64,000 bases of DNA from an uncultured Selenomonadales bacterium (GTDB taxonomy: Bacteria > Bacillota > Negativicutes > Selenomonadales > Selenomonadaceae), in NCBI GenBank assembly GCA_946183785.1, contig CAMHCS010000012.1, positions 1 to 64,000 on the forward strand. Reading direction: 5' to 3'. A program made the translations under genes and the position numbers. A model generated the notes under the pieces. It ran no database searches. It was not told the DNA's origin and worked only from the letters and a program-made list of their open reading frames with translations. Below, piece after piece: positions 37,365 through 54,453 of this stretch; the stretch's first letter is position 1; every line of letters starts with the position of its first letter.

Positions 37365-38672
37365 CTATTGGATGACCTCAATGACTTCCGGCGCGCCGTT
37401 TGCTCCCACGCGGCAGCGGCGATGCGCTTCGCGGAGAGGAACCCCGGTGACGTTCAGCTTGAAATTCTCCGGGTCGGTCATCACGAACCAATCCTTCGGC
37501 GTCTCTTCGGCGAAAATCAATTCGTTCCGAAGCGTGAAATTGCTGTCGCAATCGACGCGACGAACGGCTCCGTCCGTCAGGTCATAGACCCGAAGTTCGT
37601 GTCGGTTTTCCAGTTCCGTCATGGTCTGTGCGTCATAGCCTTTTTCGTAGTCTTCCGGCGCAGGTGCGATCAGGACGTCCACATAGAGATATTTCCGCCC
37701 GTCCCTCATTTTCACCAGCACGGGATGGATGCCGTTGGACCGCACGGAATCGGTGAACACAGTTTCCTCCTTGCTGAGGATCCCGTCGCTGCCTGTCGCC
37801 GCCGCGCTTCCGCGAATGATATGGATCCCGTTGGCGTCGCCTTTGACCTCGATCGTGCTCAGCACGGAATCGCCGAGGAAAGCCCGCATCGGCGTTCTCG
37901 GCTCGATCTCCATGCACCACTGGTCGGGGGCATGGCGGTATTTCTCCTGGAAGCAGAAGCCGTTGACGTCGAAGGTCAGGCTCGCCGTGTAAATCGGGGC
38001 ATAGGGGTCATCGGAAAGACTGAACATGTTGAAGTAAAACGTCGCGCCGCAGGGGTCCAAGGTCCACGAGCAGCCGCCTTCCTCCATGATTTTCAGCACC
38101 TTGACGGCCAGATCCGTCACGGTGCCCGAAACGAAGGGACCGTCGGGATAATTGCGGCGCAGCACGATGGCTACCTCGTTGGCGAGCATCGGCTTATTGA
38201 TGAACACGTCGTCCAGGGTCAGCGCCGCCCCTGTGGCGGTATCGTAGTTCCGCCCTATGACGGCGAAACGCCCGCGCATCCCGCCTCCGTACGCGGCTTG
38301 TGATTCGGCGAAGCTCACGGCCAGGGAATCCGCGCGATGGACATAAAGGGATTCGATGACGTCCGGTCCTTCTTCATCTCCCACCGCCGACGCTTCCACA
38401 CCGTAGCCCTCCAGCGTCACCGTCAGAGGGAGCCATGAATCCGACGGCCCGTCGATCAATATGCCCGAAAAATGTCTTTTTTCCGCCGCCCACTCCGGTT
38501 TGGAATACACGGAATAGGTCCGGAGGGGAATCGGCGTCCCAAGGTCCGTTTCAAAGTCCGACGCCTCCGCCGCAGTGCAGAACGGCGCGAAAGATTGCGG
38601 CGCGTCGGAAACGGCCCCGAAAAGGGCAAAGGACGCCGCCAGCGCGAGTGCTAACTTTTTATGTCTTTTCAT
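37365..38672 (-). CDS. Secreted DUF3298/RsiV-like protein, paralogue 1
   Basis: This 435-residue protein has a signal peptide (LALALAASFALFGAV). Its centre matches the DUF3298 pattern: HRADSLAVSFAESQAAYGGG, GRNYDTATGAALTLDDVF near residues 142-159 and the FYFN motif in DPCGATFYFNMF. DUF3298 is the lysozyme-binding part of the anti-sigma factor RsiV, but this protein has no membrane anchor or cytoplasmic anti-sigma segment. A unique C-terminal part contains DGRKYLYVD and ends CRVGANGAPEVIEV, a motif shared with three paralogues in this window. It is closest to paralogue 4 at 52380. Function unknown. Confidence 0.7.
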   Translation of the reverse strand: MKRHKKLALALAASFALFGAVSDAPQSFAPFCTAAEASDFETDLGTPIPLRTYSVYSKPEWAAEKRHFSGILIDGPSDSWLPLTVTLEGYGVEASAVGDEEGPDVIESLYVHRADSLAVSFAESQAAYGGGMRGRFAVIGRNYDTATGAALTLDDVFINKPMLANEVAIVLRRNYPDGPFVSGTVTDLAVKVLKIMEEGGCSWTLDPCGATFYFNMFSLSDDPYAPIYTASLTFDVNGFCFQEKYRHAPDQWCMEIEPRTPMRAFLGDSVLSTIEVKGDANGIHIIRGSAAATGSDGILSKEETVFTDSVRSNGIHPVLVKMRDGRKYLYVDVLIAPAPEDYEKGYDAQTMTELENRHELRVYDLTDGAVRRVDCDSNFTLRNELIFAEETPKDWFVMTDPENFKLNVTGVPLREAHRRCRVGANGAPEVIEVIQ

Positions 38673-38689
38673 ATATGCCTGCCTCCTGT

Positions 38690-38757
38690 TTCCATTGCAG
38701 CCATCTCCCTCATGAAGGGAAGGCAGTTAATAGCCCCACTCTACGAGGGGAGTATGG
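38690..38757. repeat. Intergenic palindromic repeat fragment
   Basis: CTCCCTCATGAAGGGA and CCACTCTACGAGGGGAG are short inverted sequences of the kind found in several gaps between 38 and 61 kb. They resemble ends of the larger element at 50513-50699. No gene is seen. Confidence 0.4.
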
Positions 38758-38760
38758 TTT

Positions 38761-40485
38761 TCACTTTCCGCCCAATTCTGCCGGTCTCGGCGGGACCGGA
38801 TTCTGTTCGTCCTTGAAGAGGCGAACGAAGGCCGCGCCTCCCCGGTCGAAGTAGAAGGAACCGACGGCGATGGACAGGAGATGACGGCCCGAGACGTCAT
38901 AGTAGTAAATCTCGTTGTCGTTCCAGACCAGATCGAAATACTTGTCCCATACGCGCATGTAGCCGGTGCCGTCCGGCTCCAGCACATACCATAGATCGAC
39001 GCCGTACTTGCGGGCGTCCTCGCCGTAAGTGAAACGCTCGTCGATGAGCTTTTGCAGCGCCTCGACGGTGGCTGCCTCCGCCGGACCTTTCGGCGCTTTC
39101 TCCCGTTCCTCTTTCGTCATCGGCGTTTTCACGAAATCCTTGTAGCCCTGGATTCGGTCGAGACGCCAGAATCCCGCTTTCGTGCGCGGCCCTTCGGGAA
39201 TCCCAAAGCTCTTGCGGCTGTTCGCGGGGCCGACGGCGATATGGCTGACGGGCGGCTTTTCGCCCTCGGCCAGCTCATATTCGAGGCAGAGGTCCGTCCT
39301 GATTCCGCCGAACCAGCGCGGATACCATTTCACGATCCTGCCGCTTACCTCGATGCGGCCGTACTTAATCTCCGTGCCGTAGCCGGGGCGCTCGATGTAC
39401 CAGTACTCGGTCAGGCCGTCCCGATTGTCCCAATAGAAGAACATATCGTGCAGGAATGCGAAAGCAATATCCTTCTTCTGCTTGCGGTATTTGTCGTCTT
39501 CGCCCAGCGGGAAGAACCACTTGTCCTCGGTATCTCCGCTGCGGACATAGCCGTAGCCGCCGCGCTCGCCGGTCGGCACCAGCACGATAAAATGATCGGC
39601 GGGGTTCGTCGTCGGGTCGCCCGCGTCGGCCTTCGTCACCTTGCCGCCTTCGGTCCACTGCTTCAGGCGATAGACCTGTCCCGGAAGCTCCTTGCCGAGG
39701 TCGGGGCCGTCGATGATCGCGTTGGACGAGAACGCCGTGTCGCTGACCGAGCCGCCCAGCTGGAGCACCATGCCCGGAGACAGCGGCGACTTCGCCATGA
39801 AGTCGCTCTCGCGCTCGAAGACGTAAACCTCTTCGATGTTTCCGCGCATCTGCTGGCAGTAGATCAGGCGGTTTCCCTCGAGGCTGTAATGGCCGGACGT
39901 CTCATGCGGAAAGGTCAGCGTGATCGTCCTGTCGTTCCATTTGACGGGCTTGACGTAGTTGTCGCCATCTACGGCGCCGTACTTGTCAAAGGTGCCCGTG
40001 CCGTCCTCCTTCAGCACTAAATGGTAGCCGTTGGCGATGTGGCCGATCAGCATGCCCATGCCCGGATAGATATATTCCTGCACCTGCACCCAGCGGCCCG
40101 CAACTTTCTTCATATCGACGGGGCCTTTCGCGCTCTGCATTTCCCCGTCGCGGTAATGGTATTTCTTGTTGTGGTACTGATTGTCGTAGCTGGCGTGTTT
40201 CAGTTCCCTCGGCAGCTTCACGTTGTCGGGGTGGTTCGGCTGCTCGGTCTGCATGATGTCGCCGAGCCGCAGGAACGCTTCGGAAAACGTGCCGTTCCGC
40301 TTCAACGCTTCCTGCCAGGCCGCGTCTACCGGCTCCTTGTCCGGCGTCCCGCGCGACGCCTGCACCGACGATTTCCCGCCGCCGCTTCCTCCGCCCGTTT
40401 GGCCGCCGCCTCCGCCGCAGCCGAATATCGGCACGACCAAGAGCGCCGCGAACAGCGCGCATAAACATTTTGCTTTGAGATTCAT
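38761..40485 (-). CDS. Large lipoprotein with lipocalin-like repeats
   Basis: The 574-residue product has a lipoprotein signal ending in PIFGC (cysteine near residue 23) followed by a poly-Gly stretch and a Gly/Ser linker. Two similar beta-rich blocks are visible: YHLVLKEDGTGTFDKYG with VKWNDRTITLTF around residues 155-190, and WYVLEPDGTGYMRVWDKYF with LVWNDNEIYYYDVSG near the C-terminus. They look like lipocalin-type repeats. It should be anchored in the outer or cytoplasmic membrane. I chose ATG 40485, which has GGAGGG upstream. No family name is assigned. Confidence 0.7.
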   Translation of the reverse strand: MNLKAKCLCALFAALLVVPIFGCGGGGGQTGGGSGGGKSSVQASRGTPDKEPVDAAWQEALKRNGTFSEAFLRLGDIMQTEQPNHPDNVKLPRELKHASYDNQYHNKKYHYRDGEMQSAKGPVDMKKVAGRWVQVQEYIYPGMGMLIGHIANGYHLVLKEDGTGTFDKYGAVDGDNYVKPVKWNDRTITLTFPHETSGHYSLEGNRLIYCQQMRGNIEEVYVFERESDFMAKSPLSPGMVLQLGGSVSDTAFSSNAIIDGPDLGKELPGQVYRLKQWTEGGKVTKADAGDPTTNPADHFIVLVPTGERGGYGYVRSGDTEDKWFFPLGEDDKYRKQKKDIAFAFLHDMFFYWDNRDGLTEYWYIERPGYGTEIKYGRIEVSGRIVKWYPRWFGGIRTDLCLEYELAEGEKPPVSHIAVGPANSRKSFGIPEGPRTKAGFWRLDRIQGYKDFVKTPMTKEEREKAPKGPAEAATVEALQKLIDERFTYGEDARKYGVDLWYVLEPDGTGYMRVWDKYFDLVWNDNEIYYYDVSGRHLLSIAVGSFYFDRGGAAFVRLFKDEQNPVPPRPAELGGK

Positions 40486-40535
40486 GAACAACCCTCCAAA
40501 TCTCTTATAGAAATCGTACCACAAAAACTCCTTCC

Positions 40536-40573
40536 GTCATGCCTTCGGCATGCCACCTCCCTCATGGAGGGAG
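40536..40573. repeat. Palindromic intergenic repeat
   Basis: GCCTTCGGCATGCC and the inverted pair CCTCCCTC/GAGGGAGG form two small hairpins in the gap between two secreted-protein genes. It belongs to the same loose family of repeats as at 42345, 43494 and 50513. Confidence 0.45.
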
Positions 40574-40579
40574 GCTAAA

Positions 40580-41287
40580 TTATTCCACTTTCTCAAACAC
40601 CAGCTGCGGGGATTCCGCGTCGTAGACCGGAATCTGCGTATGGAGCTTTCCGTCCCGGTAGTCGAAGGTTGTGAACCCGGTAAAATAATCTACCGCGGGA
40701 TTCTTGGGGCGGATTTTGAACTTGTCCGGGTCGGTTTCCCAGTTCTCGTGAATCACGGCAAATTCCACCGGGCCTTCCCATTCGTACTTCGCAAACCGCC
40801 AGGAAATCTTTTCGCCCTCGATTTTCAGCGTGTAATCCATCCTGTCCTTCGTCTTCCAGACGCCTTCGATGCGCGGAAGCTCTTTCTCCGTGACCACCGT
40901 TACATTTCCGTAACGGCTTTCTGTCGTCGGCAAAAGGACCTCGGACTTCTCCCCTGCGATGTCGAAGACCTTGACAAAATGCATCTGGCCGTCCTCGACC
41001 CAAAGGCCCGTAATCTGCGCGTAGTCCTTCTGATCCCCGCGCTCCCTGAGACCCGTCTTTTCGAGATGCAGCACCGTCTTCCCGTCCTCTTCCGTGACGG
41101 TGAACGTCGTTTCCAGCTGGGGGCGGTTCATCCAAAGAATCAACATGTGATTGCCGTCGATCTCGATACGCGTGCCGTAGTCGCGGGGTTTCCACGCGCC
41201 GTCGAGGGACGCGCCGCCCGCGAAAGCAGTCGAAAAAGCGCCGAGAAGAAAAAGCGAAATGAGAGAAAGCATCGCCGCTGTTTTCAT
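40580..41287 (-). CDS. Secreted beta-rich protein of unknown function
   Basis: This 235-residue protein has a clear signal peptide (LSLISLFLLGAFSTAFAGG, cleavage near residue 23). The mature part is rich in alternating strands, with two related stretches, ASLDGAWKPRDYGTRIEI and LPRIEGVWKTKDRMDYTLKI, suggesting an internal lipocalin-like duplication. I do not recognise the family. It lies in the secreted-protein array between two lipoprotein genes. A decayed paralogue is present at 32142-32270. AGGAGTGC precedes the ATG. Confidence 0.65.
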   Translation of the reverse strand: MKTAAMLSLISLFLLGAFSTAFAGGASLDGAWKPRDYGTRIEIDGNHMLILWMNRPQLETTFTVTEEDGKTVLHLEKTGLRERGDQKDYAQITGLWVEDGQMHFVKVFDIAGEKSEVLLPTTESRYGNVTVVTEKELPRIEGVWKTKDRMDYTLKIEGEKISWRFAKYEWEGPVEFAVIHENWETDPDKFKIRPKNPAVDYFTGFTTFDYRDGKLHTQIPVYDAESPQLVFEKVE

Positions 41288-41311
41288 CGGTGCACTCCTT
41301 TCATAATACTA

Positions 41312-41341
41312 AGGGCGGGCAATAAAAGTGCTGCCCGCCCT
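41312..41341 (-). terminator. Strong inverted repeat between two secreted-protein genes
   Basis: AGGGCGGGCA and TGCCCGCCCT form a perfect 10-base stem with a 10-base loop, 8 bases beyond the stop of the gene at 41350. A run of Ts follows only in the rightward direction; leftward the tail is TTAGTATT. It probably attenuates or terminates between the two genes. Confidence 0.6.
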
Positions 41342-41349
41342 ATACTTTT

Positions 41350-42312
41350 TTAGAAGTCGATACGATACAGTTTTTTCGCGCTCTCGTCGTACGCAATAAT
41401 GCTGTTGCCCTTGACTGTAGCCAGCGCGAAGACGCCGAAGGTGATTTTCCCTTCGCCCAGCTTCTTGCCGGACTTTTTCTCAAAGACGCGGAAATTGCCG
41501 TCTGGATCGATGAAAATCACATACTTGTCCGTGACGCAGAAGCCCTTGCGGCTGCCCTCCATGCCTTCATAGCGGCGAAGCTCCTTGCCCTTCTTGTCGA
41601 AGGCGACGAGCACGGGAACTTTCTTGTTCTGTCCGGGCTTCTGGAGAACCGAGCGCACAAAGATCTCGTCCTTGTCGGAAGCCACCGGGAAAAACTGCGC
41701 GTTCTTGAAGTCCGGGCTGGTCGCCGTCAAATCCGGGATAATCTCCTGCACGTCCTTGATGGAGCCGTCCTTCAGCTTGCCCATCTTCAGCTTTTTGCCG
41801 CCGAGGAAATAGAACTCATCCCGCCCGGAAATGCCGCCGCCGACTTTCGCAAGCAGCTGTCCCGGCCACTTGCCGCCGACTTTGGTCGTCTTGCCGTCAT
41901 AGACGACGAGGGCGTCTTTCGGACCTTTCCAAAGCACCACTTTGTCGTTCATGGCGATCGTATGGTTGTCATCCGTCTCCCCGAGGTCGGTAAAGTCGGA
42001 AATCGTCTCGCCCTTCATCGTGACCTTGCCCATGTGGGGCGGTTTGCGCCCGCACTGGAAATAAACGTCGTTGCCCAGCACGCCGAGCTCCCATGTGTTG
42101 ATGTTGTTCCGAAGGTCGACGCCTGTCAGCTCGTAGACCTTTGCCTCATGCGAGCCGAATTTGAAGGTCATCGTCGGCGCCGTCTTCGGCGTCTCGACTT
42201 TCGGCGCGCCGCTGCCGCCGCTGTTTCCTCCGCCTCCGCCGCAGCCCGCCAGTAAGGACACCGTCAGCAGTGCAGCCGCCGCCACGCTCAAAAGCTTTCC
42301 TTTCAGGTTCAT
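41350..42312 (-). CDS. Poly-Gly lipoprotein with propeller-like repeats, paralogue 1
   Basis: The 320-residue lipoprotein has the lipobox LLAGC near residue 23, then five glycines and a Pro-rich linker. The rest consists of repeated short strands with VYELTGVDLRN, DKVVLWKGPKDALVVYDGK, LVAFDKKGKELRRYEGMEG and AYDESAKKLYRIDF, which suggest a beta-propeller. It is clearly homologous to the next gene upstream, with identical endings, so the two arose by tandem duplication. ATG 42312 was chosen, with AGGAGG upstream. A binding or sensory role at the cell surface is only a guess. Confidence 0.7.
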   Translation of the reverse strand: MNLKGKLLSVAAAALLTVSLLAGCGGGGGNSGGSGAPKVETPKTAPTMTFKFGSHEAKVYELTGVDLRNNINTWELGVLGNDVYFQCGRKPPHMGKVTMKGETISDFTDLGETDDNHTIAMNDKVVLWKGPKDALVVYDGKTTKVGGKWPGQLLAKVGGGISGRDEFYFLGGKKLKMGKLKDGSIKDVQEIIPDLTATSPDFKNAQFFPVASDKDEIFVRSVLQKPGQNKKVPVLVAFDKKGKELRRYEGMEGSRKGFCVTDKYVIFIDPDGNFRVFEKKSGKKLGEGKITFGVFALATVKGNSIIAYDESAKKLYRIDF

Positions 42313-42344
42313 CAAAAGATTTCGCCTCCTGTATTTTTTCTGAA

Positions 42345-42436
42345 AACTCCCCCCCGTCAGCTTCGCCGCCTTTCTCATGGAGGGGGCTTGCCTTGCCTCC
42401 CTCATAGAGGGAAGTGCCCGAAGGGCGGAGGGAGTT
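42345..42436. repeat. Inverted-repeat element between tandem paralogues
   Basis: The block begins AACTCCCCCC and ends GGAGGGAGTT, with internal inverted pieces (CTTCGCCGCC, GCCCGAAGGGC, CCTCCCTC/GAGGG). It fills the whole gap between the two lipoprotein genes and has no coding capacity. Confidence 0.5.
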
Positions 42437-42442
42437 CACACA

Positions 42443-43468
42443 TCAGAAATCAATCCGGTACAGTTTCTTCGCACGATCGTCATAGGCGATGACGTCGTTG
42501 CCTGTCTTCGTCCAGAGCACGAAGGGACGCATCTCGATCTTCGCCTCCCCCAGGAGCTTTGCGGTCTTCCTGTCGTAAACGCGGAAGTCTCCCTTCGAGC
42601 CGGAATGGATGACATAGTTATCCGTGACGGCCCAGCCCCGCGGCAGGTCCTTTATGCCCTCATAGCGGCGAAGCTCCTTGCCGTTCTTATCGAAAGCGAT
42701 GAGCATCGGCGTATCTTCCTTTTCGTTGTCCTTTTTCGGCAGGAAATAGCGGATATAGATCTCGCCATCTTTGACGCAGACGGACTTGAAGGACACGCGC
42801 CCAAATTCCGGATCGATTTTCTGGTAGTCTTCGATCAGCTTCTTGCCGATCTTCCATTCGCCGTTTTCGAGTGTCTGCTCCCGCAGCTCATGCCCCCAGA
42901 GTACGTAGAAATTGTTGGAATCCGGGTCGCCCGACGGGGAGCCGGACCACTTGCCGGCCACCTTGGCCTCTTTGCCGTCGTAGATCACCAGCTTGTCCTT
43001 CTCGGTGGCTTTGCGGTTGGACTGCCAAAGGACGATCTTGCCGTTCGTCGTCATCTCGTGGATGTCGCCGCTGGGGCCGAGATCGACGAGGTTGGAAATC
43101 GTCTCGTTTTTTAAGGTGACCTTATTCACATGCTGCAATTTGTCTTCATAATGCTTGGTATCGGTGTGGAAGAAGATATCGTCGCCCAGCATCACGATCC
43201 GATTCGTGCGGATGATATTCTTGAGATCGACGCCCGTCAGCTCGTAGACCTTCGCCTCGGTCTCGCCGAACTTGAAGGTCATGGTCGGAGGCGTCGAAAC
43301 CGGCGCCCGGGCGGGAGTCTCGATTTTCGGCGGGTTGTTCGCCGCGCCGCCGCCGCTGCCGCCGCTCGACTTGCCGCCGCCACCGCCGCAGCCCGTAACA
43401 AGAGCCGCCGAGACCAGGCCCGTCAAAAGCCCCGCCGCGATCCGTTTTGCCAAGATGCCTTTCTGCAT
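42443..43468 (-). CDS. Poly-Gly lipoprotein with propeller-like repeats, paralogue 2
   Basis: This 341-residue lipoprotein has the lipobox LVTGC near residue 27 followed by GGGGG and a Gly/Ser/Pro linker. The mature part matches paralogue 1: TMTFKFGETEAKVYELTGVD, KIVLWQSNRKATEKDKLVIY, LIAFDKNGKELRRYEGI and IAYDDRAKKLYRIDF. Repeated strands suggest a propeller. GGAGAGG precedes the ATG. Both copies keep the C-terminal half best, while the segment after the linker varies. Confidence 0.7.
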   Translation of the reverse strand: MQKGILAKRIAAGLLTGLVSAALVTGCGGGGGKSSGGSGGGAANNPPKIETPARAPVSTPPTMTFKFGETEAKVYELTGVDLKNIIRTNRIVMLGDDIFFHTDTKHYEDKLQHVNKVTLKNETISNLVDLGPSGDIHEMTTNGKIVLWQSNRKATEKDKLVIYDGKEAKVAGKWSGSPSGDPDSNNFYVLWGHELREQTLENGEWKIGKKLIEDYQKIDPEFGRVSFKSVCVKDGEIYIRYFLPKKDNEKEDTPMLIAFDKNGKELRRYEGIKDLPRGWAVTDNYVIHSGSKGDFRVYDRKTAKLLGEAKIEMRPFVLWTKTGNDVIAYDDRAKKLYRIDF

Positions 43469-43520: not shown

Positions 43521-44864
43521 TTAATATCTGACGACTTTATCTTTCTCCACCCGCGCGTAAATCAGCTTGCGCGGCGCGGGCGGCTCTTTGCCTACGGAAA
43601 TCGCTTCGAGGAAACGCTTTTCCGCCCCGTCGATTGCTGCCTCCCTTGAGGTGAAGAGAACAGCGATGGGCTCGCCCTTTTTCATTGGCGCGCCGTACTT
43701 CTTCTTCAGCAAGATGCCTGCCGCCGGGTCTATGGCGTCATCCAGCGTCTCTCGACCCGCGCCGAGCATGACCGACGTCTCGCCGATGGATTCCGCGTCC
43801 ATGCCGACGATATACCCGTCCGCCGGCGCCAACACTTCCTGGACGATCGGCGCCTGCAGGAACATCGACGGATTGCGGATCACGTAATCGTCGCCGCCCT
43901 GCGTCGTGACCATAGCGCAGAGCTTTTCCAGGGCCTTCCCGGAATTCAGCGTTTCTTCCGCAATGCTGCGGCATTCCCCGCGGTCGCCGCGCCCGGAAAG
44001 ATACAGCAGCTCCGCCGAGAGCATGAGGCTCTCCTCCCGCACGTCCTCGGGGCCGTTTCCATGCAGCACCTCGACGGCCTCCGCCACCTCCAGCGAATTG
44101 CCGACGGCAAGGCCGAGGGGCTGGTTCATGTCCGTGATCAGCGCCTCTGTGCGCTTTCCCGCATGTTCGCCGATATTGACCATGGCCCGCGCCAGCTTCT
44201 CCGCATCCTCGGTGGTCTTCATGAAAGCGCCGCTCCCCACCTTGACGTCCAGAAGAATCACGTCGGTGCCGGCAGCCAGCTTCTTGCTCATGATGGACGA
44301 AGCAATCAACGGAATGCTGTCCACCGCCGCGATCACGTCGCGCAGCGCATAGAGCTTCTTGTCGGCGGGCGCCAACTCTCCCGTCTGCCCCATCAGAGCA
44401 AGGCCGTTCTGACGCACGCCGTCGAAGAACTCATCCATCGTCAGCGACGTGCTGAAGCCGGGAATCGATTCCAGCTTGTCGATCGTGCCGCCGGTATGGC
44501 CGAGACCGCGCCCGGACATCTTCGCCACGGTGAGCCCCGCGGCCGCCGTCAGCGGGGCGACGATCAGCGTCGTCTTGTCGCCCACGCCGCCGGTGGAATG
44601 TTTATCCACCTTGACGCCGGGCAGAGAGGAGAGATCCATGGTCTCGCCGGACTCCGTCATGGCGACGGTCAGCTCCGCCGTCTCCGCGTCCGTCATGCCC
44701 TGAAACCAAATCGCCATCAGCAGCGCGGCCTGCTGTTCCTTCGGAATATCGTCCGTCACGCAGCCTTTGACGAAATAACGAAGTTCCTCCTTCGTCAGCT
44801 CGCCGCCGCGCTTTTTCTTCGTGATGAGGTCGTACATGCGGGGCGTGCGGACCCCATTTTGCAT
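43521..44864 (-). CDS. pdp: Pyrimidine-nucleoside phosphorylase
   Basis: The 447-residue enzyme splits uridine or thymidine with phosphate in nucleoside salvage. The thymidine/pyrimidine phosphorylase signature MSGRGLGHTGGTIDKLES is complete near residues 109-126, and the phosphate-binding KHSTGGVGDKTTL lies near 80-92. Length and C-terminal domain (MKKGEPIAVLFTSREAAID) are normal for the family. I chose ATG 44864 with GGAGGG upstream. It stands alone functionally within the secreted-protein array; the small upstream gene ends 49 bases before it. Confidence 0.93.
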   Translation of the reverse strand: MQNGVRTPRMYDLITKKKRGGELTKEELRYFVKGCVTDDIPKEQQAALLMAIWFQGMTDAETAELTVAMTESGETMDLSSLPGVKVDKHSTGGVGDKTTLIVAPLTAAAGLTVAKMSGRGLGHTGGTIDKLESIPGFSTSLTMDEFFDGVRQNGLALMGQTGELAPADKKLYALRDVIAAVDSIPLIASSIMSKKLAAGTDVILLDVKVGSGAFMKTTEDAEKLARAMVNIGEHAGKRTEALITDMNQPLGLAVGNSLEVAEAVEVLHGNGPEDVREESLMLSAELLYLSGRGDRGECRSIAEETLNSGKALEKLCAMVTTQGGDDYVIRNPSMFLQAPIVQEVLAPADGYIVGMDAESIGETSVMLGAGRETLDDAIDPAAGILLKKKYGAPMKKGEPIAVLFTSREAAIDGAEKRFLEAISVGKEPPAPRKLIYARVEKDKVVRY

Positions 44865-44913
44865 GAAAATCCCTCCTTTTCCATCCATTTCCGAAAAACT
44901 GCACAAAAAGACT

Positions 44914-45150
44914 TCATCCTGTCGTCCGGATTCGGGAAGCCTGTTTTGTCCTTTCCACGATCAGTGCGGCGGAGCCGTCTTCCAGAGCATTGGATTCGTC
45001 GAGGTGAAGATGGCTGCCCGGCGCTTCCTTCGCCAAAGCGGCGAAATGCCCCGCCAGCGACAGCAGCCCCTCCCGGTTCGCGGACAGAACCACCGTGCCG
45101 TCCTCCGCCCTGACGCTTATCTCGGCGCCTTCTACCCATTCGAGCTCCAT
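44914..45150 (-). CDS. Imm32-like small protein
   Basis: This 78-residue protein resembles the Imm32 family: a first strand ELEWVEGAEISVRAEDGTVV, then the helix NREGLLSLAGHFAALA near 27-42, then SHLHLDESNALEDGSAALIVE. Imm32 proteins are listed as immunity proteins of polymorphic toxins, but many occur without a toxin. No toxin gene is visible nearby. I chose ATG 45150 because GGAGGAG precedes it. The gene overlaps nothing and follows the small membrane protein gene by 11 bases. Confidence 0.65.
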   Translation of the reverse strand: MELEWVEGAEISVRAEDGTVVLSANREGLLSLAGHFAALAKEAPGSHLHLDESNALEDGSAALIVERTKQASRIRTTG

Positions 45151-45161
45151 AGGCTCCTCCT

Positions 45162-45515
45162 TCAGGAAAAAACGGCGAAAATCCACCTCTCCAAAAACGC
45201 GAGAATCACCCAGCCGACGCCGGCGACAGGGATATAGAGGAGCAGCGCGAGGAAGAAGTGGCGCGCCCGCTTACCGTCTTTCGGCAGGAAAAACACGGCG
45301 CTCAAGAGGTCGGCAACGAGGAACGCAAGGAGACAGAGACCGCCGACGATGGCCAACAGCAGAAAGAACTCCACCGGGGTCGGGTGCCCCATCCGCGGGG
45401 CGGCTGCCGCGCCGATGGGAAACTCTTCCATAATTTCTTCTACGCATTCGCCCATCAGCACGGGCGTCGCAAGCCCCCAGGCCGCCGCCGCGAGGTAATG
45501 CATCCAGTGCCGCAT
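45162..45515 (-). CDS. Small membrane protein of unknown function
   Basis: The 117-residue protein has three hydrophobic segments: HYLAAAAWGLATPVLMG, FFLLLAIVGGLCLLAFLVADLLS and FFLALLLYIPVAGVGWVILAFL. A loop of about 25 residues follows the first. I do not recognise a family. AAGGAG precedes the ATG. It is co-oriented with the Imm32-like gene 11 bases downstream and lies 12 bases after a DUF3298-like gene, so the three may form one transcript. Confidence 0.6.
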   Translation of the reverse strand: MRHWMHYLAAAAWGLATPVLMGECVEEIMEEFPIGAAAAPRMGHPTPVEFFLLLAIVGGLCLLAFLVADLLSAVFFLPKDGKRARHFFLALLLYIPVAGVGWVILAFLERWIFAVFS

Positions 45516-46862: not shown

Positions 46863-46933
46863 TGGGTCATTCTCCTTTCTTTTCATACTAATCTCAGGCC
46901 AAAATTTTAAATAAAAAGTTTGAACTGAGATAC

Positions 46934-47020
46934 GCCTGCTGCGCAGGCTACATTTGCGCCTTCGGCGCAAATGACGTCTCATGCAGTCTCAGTAAAGATT
47001 TAAAAATCTTAACTGAGACT
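46934..47020. repeat. Three adjacent hairpins between ASST-like and DUF3298-like genes
   Basis: GCCTGC/GCAGGC (46934-46948), CATTTGCGCC/GGCGCAAATG (46951-46973) and a long palindrome AGTCTCAGTAAAGATTT/AAATCTTAACTGAGACT with a single mismatch (46985-47020) follow one another. The last one starts 20 bases beyond the ASST-like stop and may serve as a terminator, though it lacks a T run. Confidence 0.6.
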
Positions 47021-47039: not shown

Positions 47040-48251
47040 TCAATCATAGTATACGCAGCGGTAGGTGACATTTTGGGGATTTTCCAGAGTAATGGACATC
47101 AGTTTTTTCCCTTTGGAAAAATCGTAGACGGACATGCACTCCGGATCCCGGACTGCCAATCCCCAGCCGATGACGCAGAGATCCCCCGGAAGCATCTGGG
47201 CGGAACCGCAGGCGTAGGAGAACTTGCCGGGGAATGCGTAAGAGCGGACAGCCACCACTTGCCGGCGGTCGGTGTCAACCGCGTAGGAACTGACGCGGGA
47301 GGCTTTCCTGAGATTGTTGTTGTCAAAAACCGAAATCCAGCCATCGTCCAACGTTACATAATGCTGGCAGGAGGTTTTCTGGCTTTCGGCAAGACCGAAT
47401 TCGTCCCCGCCGCCGGACAGTTTCCATAAAATCTGGTCGCTTTTCCTGGTGCGGTCCAAACACAGAATGGAGTTGAGATGGCGTAAGGAGCAGATCAGCC
47501 GGCCATCCGCGTCGAGGCGCATGGCGTTGAAATGGACATAGTCCGGTACGTCGGACTTCTCATTCGCGAAGTCGTTGGCGGAGTCCACCGCGTCGGTAAC
47601 AGAAAGGGCATAAAGCTCCGGATAGTCGATGCTCTTCCAGTCCCAGACCACTTTTCCGTGGTCGACTTCCTGCAGGTAGGAATAGACAACTTTCGAGCCC
47701 TGCTCATAGCCGGGGATATTATAGACCGTGTCGTGCAGATAGCCGGACAGGATGTAGTGGTCCAAATCCAGCATCAGGAAATCGTGGCCGTCCAGCGGCG
47801 CGCCTTTGGCGGTGACGTCCGAAGCCTCAAAGGTGATCCGCTTCACTTCGTTGAAGTTTTCGTCCAGAATGACCCGTTCTCCCGGCGCATAGCCGGTAAG
47901 CCCATAGGTGTCATAGGCGCCCGTCTGGTCATGGTAGCTGTAATAGGTCTTGCCGTTCACCACATGCTTTTTGAAATCCCACCAGCCGGTGTTTGCGCCT
48001 TCATTCGGCTGCTCTTCGTGCTTCGACCATACGATGTTGCCTTTTCCGTCCAGCATGATCAGGTTGCGGCTGAACGCGAAGGAAAGGTAGAAGTTCCCTG
48101 GAAGATCGGTTGTCCCTGAGACGGCAATCTTGGCAAGCCCCTCCGCGACGACCGGGGTCTGCGCCGACGGAGCCGCCTGTCCGAAACTGCTCCAGGCTGC
48201 CAGCATAAAGGCAGCCAGTGCCATGATGATTGTTTTTTGTATGCGCTTCAT
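47040..48251 (-). CDS. Secreted arylsulfotransferase (ASST)-like protein
   Basis: The 403-residue protein has a signal peptide (IIMALAAFMLAAWSSFGQAAP) and a six-bladed propeller pattern of ASST-like enzymes, with NFYLSFAFSRNLIMLDGKGNI near the start, APLDGHDFLMLDLDHYILSGY near 170-190 and DYVHFNAMRLDADGRLICSL near 255-275. ASST enzymes transfer sulfate between phenols in the periplasm through a histidine. No disulfide-bond partner genes (dsbA/dsbB-like) are seen here. The substrate is unknown, and loss of the catalytic site cannot be excluded. Confidence 0.75.
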   Translation of the reverse strand: MKRIQKTIIMALAAFMLAAWSSFGQAAPSAQTPVVAEGLAKIAVSGTTDLPGNFYLSFAFSRNLIMLDGKGNIVWSKHEEQPNEGANTGWWDFKKHVVNGKTYYSYHDQTGAYDTYGLTGYAPGERVILDENFNEVKRITFEASDVTAKGAPLDGHDFLMLDLDHYILSGYLHDTVYNIPGYEQGSKVVYSYLQEVDHGKVVWDWKSIDYPELYALSVTDAVDSANDFANEKSDVPDYVHFNAMRLDADGRLICSLRHLNSILCLDRTRKSDQILWKLSGGGDEFGLAESQKTSCQHYVTLDDGWISVFDNNNLRKASRVSSYAVDTDRRQVVAVRSYAFPGKFSYACGSAQMLPGDLCVIGWGLAVRDPECMSVYDFSKGKKLMSITLENPQNVTYRCVYYD

Positions 48252-48279: not shown

Positions 48280-49620
48280 TTATCCCATGCCCTGTATCCA
48301 TGTCGCTTCCGGCAGCCCGTCCGCTCCTATGCGGCAGCGACGCAGCGGGCGAAGGCCTTCCGGAAGGTCCAGCGCGTTGATCAGAAAATTCTCAGGGTCG
48401 GACAGAATGTAGAAGATGTCTTCACCCGAACTTCCCGGCGCGGCCGTTCGGAAAGCCGCGTGACGCGTCATCGGCCATTTCGTCGGAATGCGCGTCGGTT
48501 CGTCGCCGTTCAGGTCGTAGATATACGTTTCATATTCTTTATCGTCGGACAGGATATCTGCGTAGATATACCGCCGTCCGTCTTCGAGGCTCACCAGCGT
48601 CGCCTTGACGTCCCTGGCGAATCCCGGCTCGATATGCTTCGCGCCGCCGCAGATGACGGTCAGCTTTTCGGCGGTGGCGGAAGTCTGCTGCACCTGCACC
48701 GCTCTGGCGCTGCCGTTGGCGAAGGCCGTGCGGACAGGCGTCCATGGACGAAGCTCCATGCAGTAGGACTTCGGGGCGCGGCGATATTCGTCGTTAAAAA
48801 GCTCCGGCCTCTCATCAAAGAGGATCGTCGTCGTGAAAATACCCTCCTTGAAGGCGCCGATAGCGTGAGGACTATGAACAGACGGCGAGTCGGGATTGAA
48901 GTAGAATGTCGCTCCGCAGGGATCTAAAGTCCAGTTCAGATTCCCTTCCCCGGCGAGGGCCTCAATTTTTTCCATCATGGCGAGGCCGCCGTCCTCCATG
49001 AAGGAAGCGCTCGGATAATCGCGACGAAGCTGCTCGCCGACGGCGCCCGCCAGTCCTTGCATATCCGTGAACACGTCGGACAGGAAAAGCGCTTCTCCCG
49101 TGCGCGCGTCATAGTTTTTCCCAAAGACGTAGCGCATTCCCCAGCCGTCGCCTTTATCGATCAGAACGCCTTCCAGGAAGCTCATCGCCAATGTGTCGGC
49201 GCGGCGAACGAAGACGTCGGCGAGCCAACGGTGTTTGCCCACATAAGGCGTACCCGGCTTGGCGGTCTGGGCGCGGGCAATCCGTATATCCTGCGTCGCT
49301 TCGAGAAGGATGTCTTTCACGCCCTGCGACGCGTTCTCGCTGTATTTTTTCAGGGCATTATTGAGCGCCGAGAATTCCCCCGGAGCGCCCGCGACGCGCA
49401 CTTCGTTCCAGCGCGCGAGCAGAATCTCTTCCCCCGCGTCCGTGTCGATGGAATCGTAGGAAGTCACCATCGGCTGGATTGGGCGCAGGCTCTCGTCGAT
49501 ATAAGACGCCGCCGCTTCACAGATTGCGGAGGACGGCACGGCAGACCGCAGAGAAACCGGCGCGATGCAAAAGGATAAAACCGCGAGAACAGCGGCGAAG
49601 AGCTTTTTTCCCTTTATCAT
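48280..49620 (-). CDS. Secreted DUF3298/RsiV-like protein, paralogue 3
   Basis: The 446-residue protein has a signal peptide (LFAAVLAVLSFCIAPVSL). The DUF3298 core reads RRADTLAMSFLEGVLIDKGD, GKNYDARTGEALFLSDVF and DPCGATFYFNPDS. DGRRYIYADIL and the ending CRIGADGLPEATWIQ are shared with the other paralogues. Like them it lacks the transmembrane and cytoplasmic parts of RsiV. ATG 49620 was chosen, with GGAGG upstream. The two genes on either side are also secreted proteins of unknown function. Confidence 0.7.
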   Translation of the reverse strand: MIKGKKLFAAVLAVLSFCIAPVSLRSAVPSSAICEAAASYIDESLRPIQPMVTSYDSIDTDAGEEILLARWNEVRVAGAPGEFSALNNALKKYSENASQGVKDILLEATQDIRIARAQTAKPGTPYVGKHRWLADVFVRRADTLAMSFLEGVLIDKGDGWGMRYVFGKNYDARTGEALFLSDVFTDMQGLAGAVGEQLRRDYPSASFMEDGGLAMMEKIEALAGEGNLNWTLDPCGATFYFNPDSPSVHSPHAIGAFKEGIFTTTILFDERPELFNDEYRRAPKSYCMELRPWTPVRTAFANGSARAVQVQQTSATAEKLTVICGGAKHIEPGFARDVKATLVSLEDGRRYIYADILSDDKEYETYIYDLNGDEPTRIPTKWPMTRHAAFRTAAPGSSGEDIFYILSDPENFLINALDLPEGLRPLRRCRIGADGLPEATWIQGMG

Positions 49621-49636
49621 GTCATTCCTCCCCATA

Positions 49637-50491
49637 TCAGTACACTATGGACGGGCGGTCCCCTGTCGGGTCGTACCCCTGCGGCACGTTGCCGAAGCGG
49701 AAGCCCTGCCATGATTTTTGAAGCACTTCCCAGGTCTCGTCCCGTCCGAGGCCGATGGCCTTTTCCAATTCCGCGACGGGGATCCAGAGGAAAGTCGCCT
49801 CCACCTTCTCCGCGTTCACGATATAAACGTCCGCCGAACGATCGAAGGTTTCCTTGCCGATTTCCGCGCCGTTTGGATCCATATATTTTTCCGGCCTAAA
49901 ATCCAGCATCCCCGGTCTGGTTTCGGACTCTTTGATCACGCCCTGCTCCGTCGCGGCAAGATACGTAAACAGCATATCGTTCGACTTGTTGAGGAGCTGC
50001 CGGGCTACGATATATTCCCCGTCCTGAAGCCGAGGAAGGCTCGTTTTCCTGTAAGACGTGTCGATATGATAATAGCGCTCCTCGCGACTGCTTTCGTCGA
50101 TCACGCGATAGGCCGTCAATTTGTTTTCGCCCGCCATCCCGACGAACCTCGGCTTGAACCCGGCCTCCGGCGGCCGGATCTCGATCGGCTTCAATACGTC
50201 CTCGCTCTCCGAGTCATATTCATAGCACGCATAATCCAGATACATCCCGGTCTCGTCCATTTCCGCGACAGTGAATTCCAGCCATCCGTTGCCGTCCATG
50301 TCGCTGACGCAAAAGCAGGCGTTTTTCGCTTTCGCGTCTTCGAAGTCGATGCCGTTGACGACGGGACTGTTTTGCAGCCCGACAAGCTCCAGCCCGTATT
50401 CGTAAGGCTTCGCGAAAGCCGTGGCGGAAACGGCCATAGTCCCGGCCGCAAGAAAAGCAAGAGTCTTCGCAAGTTTTTTGAAATGCTGCAT
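49637..50491 (-). CDS. Secreted protein with a Ca-binding-like DxDGxxE motif
   Basis: This 284-residue protein has a signal peptide (TLAFLAAGTMAVSATAFA). A short loop VSDMDGNGWLEFTVAE near residues 65-80 resembles the aspartate-rich calcium loops of FG-GAP or EF-hand-like repeats. The C-terminal segment ends with VAELEKAIGLGRDETWEVLQ. The gene at 53644 has the same layout (VTDLDHDGRLEIF and a similar C-terminal helix) and is a distant paralogue. Both follow a DUF3298-like gene on the strand, so the pair order is repeated. Confidence 0.6.
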   Translation of the reverse strand: MQHFKKLAKTLAFLAAGTMAVSATAFAKPYEYGLELVGLQNSPVVNGIDFEDAKAKNACFCVSDMDGNGWLEFTVAEMDETGMYLDYACYEYDSESEDVLKPIEIRPPEAGFKPRFVGMAGENKLTAYRVIDESSREERYYHIDTSYRKTSLPRLQDGEYIVARQLLNKSNDMLFTYLAATEQGVIKESETRPGMLDFRPEKYMDPNGAEIGKETFDRSADVYIVNAEKVEATFLWIPVAELEKAIGLGRDETWEVLQKSWQGFRFGNVPQGYDPTGDRPSIVY

Positions 50492-50512
50492 TTTCTTTTC
50501 TCCATCCTTATA

Positions 50513-50699
50513 GCCCTCCCCTTTGGGGAGGAGCGAAATGTGCCAGTGGCACATTTCGGGCGAAGACGGTGGGTGAGGTCTCACAACGTTTCGCTTATGT
50601 CAAGCGTTACGTAACAAGACCTCATCCGTCGCGCTTCGCGCGCCACCGTCCGGGGAGTCCACTGGACTCCCGCGCAAAGCGCCCCCAAAGGGGAAGGCT
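50513..50699. repeat. 187-bp inverted-repeat intergenic element
   Basis: The left end AGCCCTCCCCTTTGGGG and the right end CCCCAAAGGGGAAGGCT are inverted copies with few mismatches. Inside are the hairpin AAATGTGCCA/TGGCACATTT, then AGACCTCATCCGTC and CGCGCTTCGCGCG. There is no reading frame of note. Fragments of the same sequence occur at 43494 and 60471. Confidence 0.65.
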
Positions 50700-50707
50700 C
50701 ATTAAAC

Positions 50708-52312
50708 TCAATCCGGCGTCAATATCGCGGCCAGAGTCCCGAGGAACATGAGCAACAGGAAGCCGCCCACGGCCAAGAAGGGGCCCCAGCCCGCAATTTC
50801 CTTCAGGTCCTTGATAAGTCCCCAGATGGAAGTGCTTCGCGCGTTGTCCGACTTCACGGGCTTCGTCTTTCCGTCGGGCAGGATCATTCGGAAGACCGGG
50901 TAGTTGTAGACGCGGATTCGCCCGACGGCAATCCAGAGGATGATGGTGACGGGAACGGTGAACACCATCCAAACCCCGTTATACTGGTATTGCGCAACGC
51001 CGTCGAAGTCCAGCATCCACGCGCAAATTGCCGGCAGCCCGTTGAACACGATGGCGCCGAGCAATGTCATGATAACGCGGAAGGGCGTATAGAACGCCAT
51101 CTTGACTGGAACCATCTCGCCGTTCACCGGCTCCATAAAGACGGCTCTCGTCGTCGTGTCCTCGATGGTGTCCTCACCTTGCGTGACACTGAGCTTTGAT
51201 TGCACGCGCTCGGCACGGCTCTTTTCCGTCTTGAACACGACGCGCCGGAATTCCTCGCCGCGCCCGTCGCTGAACGCCGTGAAGAAAATCGCGCCAAAGA
51301 CCATCGCCGTCATGCCTGCCAGCTCGAGATTCGGCTGCCAAAGCCACATCATGAACGTCACCAGCAGCGTCATGAGCGTCGGCTCGATGAGCCACGAAAG
51401 CACTTTTTCCTCTTTCGTCTTCGAGACGGCGACGCGGCCCGTCTGGCCGTTGACCACCGCCAGCACCGGACCGATCTTCAGCACATAGGCGGGCAGCAGC
51501 GCGGGCAGGCGCAGGATGTCCCCCGCGTGCATCCTCATCGTAACGCCCGTGGTCTGGAGCTGTTTTTCCACGTCGGGGCGGAAGCCCTCTCTGACTTCCT
51601 CCAGCACCCGAGCTTCCGTCTGTTTCGCGTCGATGTCCGAGAGCTTGACCCGCTGGCCCGCGATGAAGGCGAACTCGAAGGTGCGCGCCTCCGTCCACTC
51701 GAAGGGTTCCATAGCGTCCAGCACTAAGTTGTCAAGCTGTTTCGAGGTGTTGACAGCGAGGCCGTTCAAAAAGCCGCCCACATGATATTTGTAGTCGGAA
51801 AAGGTTTCCATGCGCTCCGCCTCGGCGCTCACCGGCCCGCGGATCAGCTCATAGGGGAGATAATAGCCGCGCAGGTTCTTGATGGACGCCAGCACGGTCT
51901 TGGCTTCTTCCTGCTTCTGGTTTTTCTGCGCCCATTCCTGAAGCCGCGCCCGGGCCTCGTCCTCGGTCAGCACAAACGGGATGATGACCTCCGGCAGCTC
52001 CGATATGGCAAAGGCCCGCCGCGCGAACTTGCCTCCGCAGAATTCGCAGTTTCCCATGGCCTCGCCTTCGGGAATCACGACTTCGGCGCCGCAGTTCTGG
52101 CACACGCATTTTTCCTCGGCGACGCTCTTGTCCCGCAGCACTTCCTTCTTGCGGGCGTCCCGCCACTCGCCGAGCCGCTGCACCGGCTCATGGATGTCCG
52201 TAGTGCCGCCGCAATACCCGCAGTGATACTCCTGATGCACGATGTCGTATTCCGCCGGCGCTCCACAGTAGGAGCAGTAAACGGCAAGCGGATTGTTCTT
52301 CGTCTCGCTCAT
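50708..52312 (-). CDS. Zinc-ribbon membrane protein
   Basis: The 534-residue protein begins with two zinc ribbons: CSYC and CGYC near residues 12-36, then CQNC and CEFC near 71-93. A middle part of about 220 residues is predicted to be cytoplasmic and beta/alpha mixed (FIIPFVLTEDEARARLQEW-like region near 110-130). The last 230 residues hold four or five membrane helices, including MTLLVTFMMWLWQPNLELAG and GPFLAVGGFLLLMFLGTLAAI. Proteins of this type are seen with TPM-domain or LemA-like genes but none is present here. Function unknown. Confidence 0.7.
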   Translation of the reverse strand: MSETKNNPLAVYCSYCGAPAEYDIVHQEYHCGYCGGTTDIHEPVQRLGEWRDARKKEVLRDKSVAEEKCVCQNCGAEVVIPEGEAMGNCEFCGGKFARRAFAISELPEVIIPFVLTEDEARARLQEWAQKNQKQEEAKTVLASIKNLRGYYLPYELIRGPVSAEAERMETFSDYKYHVGGFLNGLAVNTSKQLDNLVLDAMEPFEWTEARTFEFAFIAGQRVKLSDIDAKQTEARVLEEVREGFRPDVEKQLQTTGVTMRMHAGDILRLPALLPAYVLKIGPVLAVVNGQTGRVAVSKTKEEKVLSWLIEPTLMTLLVTFMMWLWQPNLELAGMTAMVFGAIFFTAFSDGRGEEFRRVVFKTEKSRAERVQSKLSVTQGEDTIEDTTTRAVFMEPVNGEMVPVKMAFYTPFRVIMTLLGAIVFNGLPAICAWMLDFDGVAQYQYNGVWMVFTVPVTIILWIAVGRIRVYNYPVFRMILPDGKTKPVKSDNARSTSIWGLIKDLKEIAGWGPFLAVGGFLLLMFLGTLAAILTPD

Positions 52313-52379
52313 GGCAGTTTCCTTTCCTCAAATAGAACTTGCAGCAATATCCTATCTTATGCGAAAGGCCGGTGTCCCG

Positions 52380-53624
52380 TCACGGGCGGACGGAGGCGTG
52401 GCCTAAAACCACGGGCGCGCCGTCCGCGCCTACCTTGCAGTCGACGTAGTCTTGCAGGAACGGCGTATTCGTGCGGGTCAGCGTGAACCCGTCCGGGTCG
52501 GTCATAACATGCCAAATGCGCTGGACTTCTTCCGCCGGCTCGGTGGCGAGCATCGTGAAATTGCTGTCGCATTCCACGCGGAAGATTTTGTCGCCGTTCA
52601 GATCGTAGACGCGAAGCTCATGCTGCGGATGCATCGCGGCAGTCGCGCAGTCCGCATAGAGATACTTCCGCCGGTCGCGCGTCATGACGAAGACCGGACG
52701 AATGCCTTCCAGTTCGCCGGGGTCGATAAATTCTTCCCCGTTCCGCCGGATGACGACGCCCTTCGTATGAACCGCAACCTCGGTCAGCTTGTCGCTCGAC
52801 TCGTCGAAGCAAAGCATCGTCGGCAGCCGCGGCTCCACGTCCATGCAGAACGATTCGGGGCAGGAGCGGTACTTCGTCTGGAAATGGTACGGCGTATAGG
52901 CGAAGCAAAACGTCACTGAATAAATGTCGTCGTAAGGGTCGGACGTCAGCGAGCCGGGGTTGAAGTAAAACGTCGCGCCGAAGGGATCGAGGCTCCACGA
53001 GAACTCGCCGCCTGCCATGACGCGCTTCACTTTTTCGCAGAAGGCGTCGTAATCGCCGCTGCCCAATTTGTCGGTGGGAAACCGCCCGGGATAGAGTCCG
53101 CCCAGCCGATAGGCGATTTCATTGGCAAGCTGTTCCCGATTGACAAATACGTCGTCAAAGGACAATTCCTTGCCCATGGCGGTATCGTAGTTCCTGCCGT
53201 AGACGCCGAAGCGCCCGCGCATCCCGCCGCCATAAGCGGCGCAGGACTCGACGAAGCTGACGGCGCGGCTGTCGGCGCGGCGGACCCGAATCGTCTTGAT
53301 GACGTCCAGACCCTCCTCTTCCGCAACCTTCGACTCGTCCACGCTGTACCCTTCCAGCGCGCCCGCAATGGGGAGCCATTTTTCCCCGACCTCCCCTTTG
53401 AACATGATGCCCGGGAAATGGCGCCTGACCGTCGTCCACTCCGGCCCGGAATACGACTGGAATACTCTGAGCGGCAGCCCCCAGCCCAGATTTTCCATGA
53501 AAAGCGGTCCCGTCGCCTCCGCCTCCGCCACGGCGGGAGGATAAAACGCAGGCGTGCCGGGGAACGCGCCAAAAAGCGAAAGGGACGCGGCAAGCATGAC
53601 TGCGAGTTTTTTGCTCTTCTTCAT
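52380..53624 (-). CDS. Secreted DUF3298/RsiV-like protein, paralogue 4
   Basis: This 414-residue protein has a signal peptide (LAVMLAASLSLFGAFPGTPA). It is the closest relative of paralogue 1: PEWTTVRRHFPGIMFKG, AAYGGGMRGRFGVYGRNYDT and LDPFGATFYFNPGSL match that protein nearly word for word. The C-terminal half has DRRKYLYADC and ends CKVGADGAPVVLGH. The ATG has GGAGGGG upstream. Function unknown; the absence of an anchor argues against an RsiV-type anti-sigma role. Confidence 0.7.
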   Translation of the reverse strand: MKKSKKLAVMLAASLSLFGAFPGTPAFYPPAVAEAEATGPLFMENLGWGLPLRVFQSYSGPEWTTVRRHFPGIMFKGEVGEKWLPIAGALEGYSVDESKVAEEEGLDVIKTIRVRRADSRAVSFVESCAAYGGGMRGRFGVYGRNYDTAMGKELSFDDVFVNREQLANEIAYRLGGLYPGRFPTDKLGSGDYDAFCEKVKRVMAGGEFSWSLDPFGATFYFNPGSLTSDPYDDIYSVTFCFAYTPYHFQTKYRSCPESFCMDVEPRLPTMLCFDESSDKLTEVAVHTKGVVIRRNGEEFIDPGELEGIRPVFVMTRDRRKYLYADCATAAMHPQHELRVYDLNGDKIFRVECDSNFTMLATEPAEEVQRIWHVMTDPDGFTLTRTNTPFLQDYVDCKVGADGAPVVLGHASVRP

Positions 53625-53643
53625 CAGTCGGTCCCCTCCATCG

Positions 53644-54453
53644 TCAATCGTATTGCCCGCCGTTCAGGAATGCCTTGTACGAATTTTCCAGGACGAGAGG
53701 CAGCTCCGCCAGTCCGATGCGCTTCTGTATTTCCTCGGCCCTGTACCATGAGAGAGGCGCCGTCTGTCCCGATTCGACGCCGAACCGCGCCAGCTCAATA
53801 TCCGCGTACCGCTGAAGGTCGATTTCCTCCGGCGTGCCGATCTGCCCGCTTTCCGCTTCCACCTTCAGCCACCCGGGCAGGAAGAATTTCCGCGCCGCCA
53901 GATCGGAGCCCGGCGACGGCATCTTCACCGTCATGAAGGCGAGGTCCTCGATAATCAGGTCGCCGTGCATCGTCAGCGCGACTTTCGTATCGACGAAGTC
54001 CCATTCGTCTCCGTCCGCTTTCTTCGAGCTGACAAAGACGTAATGGTAGTCGTCGCTGCCCTGTTCATGATACATCATGGGCGCGGTCGCAGACTCGCCG
54101 CTCATGATGTCGGGCACGTCGGAGCCGCCCGCGAAGAAGAGGCCCCAGGTCCGTTTGTCGCAGCTGTCGTTCAGTTCCTCGCAGCGAATCTCCGGCGCGA
54201 TTCCCTCGCCGCCGCGCTTTGCCTTGAAAATCTCCAGCCGACCGTCGTGGTCGAGATCGGTCACGGCGTAAAACCAGCGGTTCCAGTCCGCGTCCTTTTC
54301 CGGAGAGACGAACCAGCCGCCCTCCTGCCCGGAGTTCACCGTCTCCGCGAGAATCTGTATCTGCTCCGAAGGCGAACGCGGCGCGGCAAATGCCGTCGCC
54401 GAAAGCGCGAGGGATGCGAGCAGCGCAGAAAGGATTTTCTTGCCTTTTGTCAT
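53644..54453 (-). CDS. Secreted protein with a Ca-binding-like DxDGxxE motif, second member
   Basis: The 269-residue protein has a signal peptide (ILSALLASLALSATAFAAP). The loop VTDLDHDGRLEIFKAKRGGE near residues 63-82 resembles calcium-binding FG-GAP/EF-hand loops, and EEIQKRIGLAELPLVLENSY closes the protein. It is a distant paralogue of the gene at 49637. I chose ATG 54453 because GGAGGAAA precedes it; the 26 codons upstream are rejected. It lies 19 bases downstream of paralogue 4's promoter side and is read in the same direction. Confidence 0.6.
   Translation of the reverse strand: MTKGKKILSALLASLALSATAFAAPRSPSEQIQILAETVNSGQEGGWFVSPEKDADWNRWFYAVTDLDHDGRLEIFKAKRGGEGIAPEIRCEELNDSCDKRTWGLFFAGGSDVPDIMSGESATAPMMYHEQGSDDYHYVFVSSKKADGDEWDFVDTKVALTMHGDLIIEDLAFMTVKMPSPGSDLAARKFFLPGWLKVEAESGQIGTPEEIDLQRYADIELARFGVESGQTAPLSWYRAEEIQKRIGLAELPLVLENSYKAFLNGGQYD

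Follow-up and report, generated by a model that had tools for sequence, protein, structure and literature searches.

RsiV, the anti-sigma-V factor of Bacillus subtilis, has an ectodomain of the PdaC/DUF4163 plus DUF3298 fold, which binds lysozyme through S169, P259 and Y261 and inhibits it by putting loops into the active site, the purified ectodomain alone being sufficient (PMC5014341). The same fold is found in the solved structures 3cyg (Fervidobacterium), 3s5t (Bacteroides fragilis BF2082) and 4e72 (Pseudomonas PA4972), and a related N-terminal domain accompanies the NodB catalytic domain in the B. subtilis peptidoglycan deacetylase PdaC. DUF3298 domains are widespread; in the open-access papers searched, their function is treated for RsiV alone, and no ligand is given for any other. 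The window considered here is a whole stretch of 64,000 nucleotides from an uncultured Selenomonadales bacterium (contig CAMHCS010000012.1, hereafter contig 12, of the 2.93-Mb draft genome GCA_946183785.1). It holds an array of 16 minus-strand genes, from 54892 down to 37365, which we found undescribed in the open-access literature searched, and four of these genes encode DUF3298-like proteins, named paralogues A (45528), B (48280), C (52380) and D (37365). We read the four as exported soluble binding proteins, in which an RsiV/PdaC-type saddle probably holds a protein or polymer ligand and to which a beta-rich module of about 155 residues has been added, co-encoded with envelope proteins; we give this reading a probability of roughly 0.45, somewhat short of even.

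The four paralogues share 31-45% identity (BLASTP E 1e-42 to 1e-116) and form one homologous family, as a sequence-only reading of the window had held, and the shared C-terminal ending which it described is present in all of them as C-x-[VI]-G-A-[DN]-G-x-P (in a more general form, C-x-[VI]-G-x-x-G-x-P) and in no other window protein tested. Against the Pfam family DUF3298 (PF11738, cut-off 24.1 bits), paralogue A scores above the cut-off with 30.3 bits and paralogue B below it with 16.8, and no match was obtained for C and D; among 20 family members scanned, nine matched DUF3298 and nine PdaC. The genome has three DUF3298 matches above the cut-off, all of them members of this exported family. 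The family profile matches 3s5t and 3cyg by sequence. Direct comparison of the profile with the RsiV sequence found nothing, and searches with the family never returned RsiV, even at E 10, so that the relation to RsiV is seen from the fold and, in some members, from Pfam matches.

The fold was assessed on an AlphaFold2 model of paralogue B built with 18 family sequences (mean predicted local distance difference test, pLDDT, 82.7; predicted template modelling score, pTM, 0.83). Its residues 51-290 share the fold of 3cyg, 3s5t and 4e72 (Foldseek, VIA-align; Z 16.0, 15.1 and 14.9, respectively), and residues 53-286 superpose on residues 76-285 of RsiV (PDB 5jen) with Z 15.7 over 199 residues and a root-mean-square deviation of 3.3; the next structural row, at Z 8.3, covers the other module. 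Because the fold of paralogue B matches the DUF3298 structures despite its below-cut-off Pfam score, its relationship is settled. According to this confident model, paralogue B has an RsiV-type ectodomain, which is assigned to the other three by homology only, in agreement with the earlier proposal of four RsiV-like proteins.

Unlike 3cyg, 3s5t and 4e72, which stop at the DUF3298 domain, every paralogue continues after the RsiV-type domain into the added module. A model of this module by itself (pLDDT 84) consists entirely of beta structure. Pfam lists no family for it, and Foldseek gave no match at E 0.001 or better. A structural second look returned mostly beta-propellers, at Z 6.0-7.3 over 110-128 residues, values which, the tool warns, may mean only a common arrangement, and the module is predicted to form about three propeller-like blades. 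The lysozyme inhibitor PliI is among these weak rows at Z 6.0, tied with many propellers, a value which does not discriminate. A search of 249 genomes across the phylum found the module only in Selenomonadaceae, apart from a weak occurrence in one other family, where the context differs: a membrane protein of genome G293 (4310-5695 in L078) contains part of it, with VGEDGMP, without a DUF3298 domain. Because of this weak relative, the module is not strictly confined to Selenomonadaceae. Shorter relatives without it occur in other genera of that family.

The sequence-only reading had further supposed that the ligand-binding core of RsiV was kept, and here the comparison fails. With the RsiV residues read from 5jen and the first loop placed through 3cyg, the position of S169 is occupied in the four paralogues by G (or H, W or R one column away), that of P259 by S, A, S and D in A, B, C and D, and that of Y261 by S, K, P and P; none of the three residues is retained in any of the four window proteins, and the second RsiV loop (Y-x-x-x-P-x-Y) has no counterpart in C and D. 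A MAFFT alignment had put the first loop on the wrong strand (ADTLAVS), producing a false S169 match, and was rejected in favour of the 3cyg bridge, which puts the loop at G-G-x-H-G. The proposed absence of the remaining RsiV parts stands: the proteins start with a signal peptide region, beyond which the four have no hydrophobic segment, and no cytoplasmic anti-sigma part or transmembrane helix precedes the ectodomain. Unlike RsiV, moreover, they have no linked sigV. No gene for an extracytoplasmic function (ECF) sigma factor was found on contig 12 or on contig 11, which carries a second locus of the family, among 12 sigma-70 region 4 matches genome-wide. The lysozyme-receptor reading is not supported, since the contact residues are replaced and both a linked ECF sigma gene and an anti-sigma part are absent.

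The same replacements bear on the possibility that the paralogues are inhibitors or decoys, soluble ectodomains blocking the c-type lysozymes of the ruminant or those of ciliates, phages or rival bacteria. The purified RsiV ectodomain does inhibit lysozyme by itself (PMC5014341), the fold is the same, and several paralogues could cover several lysozyme types; however, S169, P259 and Y261 are replaced in all four, C and D are without the Y-x-x-x-P-x-Y loop equivalent, and lysozyme binding is not known for other proteins of this fold, which makes an inhibitor function improbable. The periplasmic lysozyme inhibitors PliI, MliC and Ivy are small exported beta-rich proteins too, and no sequence relation to them was found.

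Signalling could also be split between proteins, with the paralogues as the sensing part and another array-encoded membrane protein, for example the zinc-ribbon protein 50708, as the relay. This protein is a conserved membrane neighbour, and a distant paralogue of it lies between two other DUF3298-like genes. Such a relay is nevertheless highly improbable given that neither contig 12 nor contig 11 has an ECF sigma gene, that the anti-sigma part is missing and that most other genera carry a lone DUF3298-like gene among unrelated ones. The broader suggestion of a surface defence or signalling set is likewise not borne out: there is no linked ECF sigma factor, selection is of the ordinary purifying kind, and PADLOC (anti-phage defence systems described by 2023) gave no match at E 0.01 for ten array proteins, of which paralogue D (37365) was the only DUF3298-like one scanned.

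A plainer alternative is that these are ordinary envelope proteins which bind peptidoglycan or another wall polymer and aid wall maintenance, a role also possible for the part of PdaC outside its catalytic domain. The nine PdaC matches among the 20 members scanned are in line with this (for paralogue A the match to the N-terminal domain of PdaC is weak, E 0.0024, below the cut-off, and the best member reaches 7e-8), as are the lack of a linked sensor or effector and the purifying selection. Unlike PdaC, the four paralogues have no Pfam match to the NodB deacetylase domain, nor do they carry another catalytic domain, and one maintenance function does not call for six to seven diverged copies per genome whose loops are group-specific; we consider this explanation unlikely, if still a serious one.

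The loops in question are the equivalents of those with which RsiV grips lysozyme, and their variability was compared within orthologous groups of 5-7 sequences each, against shifted controls. Compared with the remainder of the domain, they are less variable in group A (0.06 vs 0.157; as low in 11 of 230 shifted controls) and in group D (0.083 vs 0.309; as low in 13 of 204). In group B they are the most variable part (0.563 vs 0.233; 1 of 240 controls as high) and fall into two distinct classes, both loops changing together. Between paralogues the loop sequences differ strongly, and the loop E-G-G-V-H-G of paralogue A corresponds to T-G-G-A-H-G of 3cyg, 3s5t and 4e72. The pattern would fit a binding face which has been retained and re-tuned for paralogue-specific ligands, a result graded as suggestive because few sequences were compared and the fold was already known when the loops were examined.

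In the binding-protein reading, the paralogues would reside in the periplasm or outside the cell, where the saddle-shaped face of the RsiV/PdaC-type domain would hold a protein or polymer ligand, probably an envelope-related one such as a wall-active enzyme or a wall polymer. Each paralogue may bind its own partner through its differing saddle loops, and the C-terminal module might, as a conjecture, dock to a partner such as a neighbouring DxDGxxE protein or lipoprotein. Several points weigh against this reading. The loops of group C are somewhat more variable than the rest of the domain and display no conservation; the loop sample is small and drawn mostly from metagenome bins, and surface loops are often variable in any case; gene-wide ratios of non-synonymous to synonymous divergence (dN/dS) are at most 0.41 in every comparison, with no sign of an arms race; and, to our knowledge, no general function is established for DUF3298 domains as a class. 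Positive selection was rejected on the same ratios: orthologous pairs of DUF3298-like genes lie at about 0.10-0.37, the zinc-ribbon protein at about 0.09 and seryl-tRNA synthetase at 0.04.

The genome was assigned in or next to Schwartzia, and some records of its congeners come from rumen or omasum samples. The family is present in all 11 genomes of the genus, with seven copies (split genes counted once) in this genome (G000), G001, G005 and G007, six in G006 and fewer in less complete bins; across the wider family, the count is 71 of 151 genomes, most of which carry one to three copies. The tree places A, B, C and D in separate groups, beside three further ones from two other loci of the genome. 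Members of groups A, B and D are also found in a second genus, and the duplications are therefore older than the species of the genus. Four of the seven family genes fell within 16.3 kb in only 6 of 200,000 uniform placements. In the second locus (contig 11, 25046-29805; 6999-11809 in L029), two DUF3298-like genes flank the distant 50708 paralogue (22% identity), an arrangement which is the same in G005 and G007. Paralogue B of G007 is split over two overlapping frames (13328-14703 in L026), which reflects a frameshift in the gene or an error of assembly.

The conserved neighbourhood which the sequence-only reading asked for was found: gene order is kept in seven congeners (G005, G007, G001, G004, G006, G009 and G010) as far as their contigs extend, and partly in other genera. 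The gene of the second DxDGxxE protein (DxD2; the first is DxD1) immediately precedes paralogue A in L056 and D in L059; in L064, from another genus, a DUF3298-like gene is accompanied by a relative of the small membrane protein at 45162 and by two lipoprotein relatives. Most other genera have the DUF3298-like gene by itself, with unrelated genes around it. Within the genus, paralogue D adjoins C in several congeners and an EAL gene in the window and in G005.

Such shifts could also be expected of a neutral collection, in which tandem duplicates and unrelated envelope genes have come together with no joint function. A phosphorylase lies in the middle of the array, D occupies two different places among species, and synonymous divergence between the same two species ranges along the array from 0.07 to more than 0.5, so that segments have been exchanged separately; this roughly tenfold difference between neighbours shows piecewise exchange. 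Against a neutral origin, the order is conserved over several species and partly in another genus, and spacings of 1-28 bases at several junctions suggest co-transcription, for which reasons we regard it as rather unlikely; the array may have a joint function. For paralogue D and the large lipoprotein (37365-40524, compared with L042), synonymous divergence between this genome and G005 is 0.07, most neighbours lying at 0.2-0.8, which suggests a recent segmental exchange.

The idea of a repeated unit of a DUF3298-like gene and a DxDGxxE gene held in part. The pair recurs with several DUF3298 paralogues, but the DxDGxxE gene lies upstream of its neighbour in the direction of transcription instead of following it, and the pair is absent in some genomes. 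A fixed unit is further weakened by G001, which has paralogue B without DxD1, and by two other genera, in which relatives of DxD2 and the DUF3298-like gene are on different contigs. DxD1 and DxD2 have no BLASTP match to each other and both weakly match one third protein, on contig 2 near 30,700; they are at most distant relatives, as judged from these matches.

All open reading frames named in the sequence-only reading are present on the minus strand (Table 1). Its count of at least ten exported proteins is confirmed by eleven: the four DUF3298-like proteins, two DxDGxxE proteins, two poly-Gly lipoproteins, the large lipoprotein, a 235-residue protein and an ASST-like protein, whose identification is upheld by Pfam. 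The five array members which are not exported had been left out of that description: a pyrimidine-nucleoside phosphorylase, an Imm32 protein, two small membrane proteins and the zinc-ribbon membrane protein. The genes are separated by short gaps. The two poly-Gly lipoproteins are 44-46% identical (BLASTP), and the NCBIfam scan added no identification for the array proteins. Imm32 proteins are usually immunity proteins of polymorphic toxin systems, and no obvious toxin gene adjoins this one. The zinc-ribbon protein was considered as B. subtilis YdjG, a candidate for which no sequence support was obtained.

Table 1. Genes of the array and the added module of paralogue B, in window coordinates.
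Feature	Coordinates	Strand	Evidence and remarks
DUF3298-like paralogue D, 435 aa	37365-38672	-	Signal peptide, then RsiV-type domain and C-terminal module (ending CRVGANGAP); homologous to A, B and C; no Pfam match
Large lipoprotein	38761-40524	-	Likely FGC lipobox, then poly-Gly; 96-98% identity between species; no Pfam/NCBIfam match
235-aa exported protein	40580-41287	-	No Pfam/NCBIfam match above cut-off
Poly-Gly lipoprotein 1	41350-42405	-	Lipobox LAGC
Poly-Gly lipoprotein 2	42443-43468	-	Lipobox VTGC
Pyrimidine-nucleoside phosphorylase (cytosolic enzyme)	43521-44906	-	Three Pfam domains, E 2e-44 to 4e-18
Imm32-family small protein	44914-45186	-	PF15566 E 1.7e-13, above cut-off
Small membrane protein	45162-45515	-	Hydropathy; position conserved in array; relative adjoins DUF3298-like gene in another genus (L064)
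DUF3298-like paralogue A	45528-46982, likely start 46862	-	PF11738 E 8.4e-7, above cut-off; start likely because homologues begin there
Exported ASST-like protein	47040-48251	-	Arylsulfotran_2 PF14269 E 3.5e-19; PF05935 E 9.7e-15
DUF3298-like paralogue B (modelled)	48280-49635	-	AlphaFold2 pLDDT 82.7, pTM 0.83; RsiV Z 15.7
C-terminal module of paralogue B	48283-48774	-	Predicted three propeller-like blades; model pLDDT 84; no Pfam family
DxDGxxE exported protein 1 (DxD1)	49637-50584, likely start 50491	-	Motif DMDGNGWLE; start likely because the first 31 residues fall in a dispersed DNA repeat
Zinc-ribbon membrane protein	50708-52312	-	Cys pairs in sequence; hydropathy
DUF3298-like paralogue C	52380-53624	-	45% identity to D; no Pfam match
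DxDGxxE exported protein 2 (DxD2)	53644-54531, likely start 54453	-	Motif DLDHDGRLE; homologues begin at 54453
Small membrane protein, upstream end of array	54470-54892	-	Position conserved; hydropathy

Repeats surround and enter the array. A nearly full palindrome of 167 bp occurs at 36921-37087, 37085-37235, 55200-55366 and 58003-58168, with copies at both array ends, and about 40 times in the genome at 99-100% identity. It folds at -78 kcal/mol (z -10), has no family in Rfam and looks like a recently active miniature inverted-repeat transposable element. A second dispersed hairpin repeat, with several further genome copies at 78-88% identity, lies at 50495-50620 between the zinc-ribbon gene and DxD1, for which reason the mechanical reading frame of DxD1 begins too early. 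Directly beyond the array, 33948-36917 encodes a GGDEF-EAL protein with two SBP_bac_3 solute-binding domains.

The C-terminal module is an unlisted domain and, as such, a candidate addition to domain libraries. The six or seven copies of one fold, each with different saddle loops, make a natural set for comparing the binding range of this fold. In a bolder version of the binding-protein reading, which we hold to be clearly unlikely, Selenomonadaceae, and Schwartzia most of all, would have made the RsiV-type fold into a free secreted recognition family, with loops re-cut in each paralogue for different wall-active rumen proteins and the three-blade module coupling them to co-encoded envelope partners. 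If a wall hydrolase were bound by even one copy, a diderm rumen bacterium would be shown to use the RsiV receptor fold for a family of soluble inhibitors.

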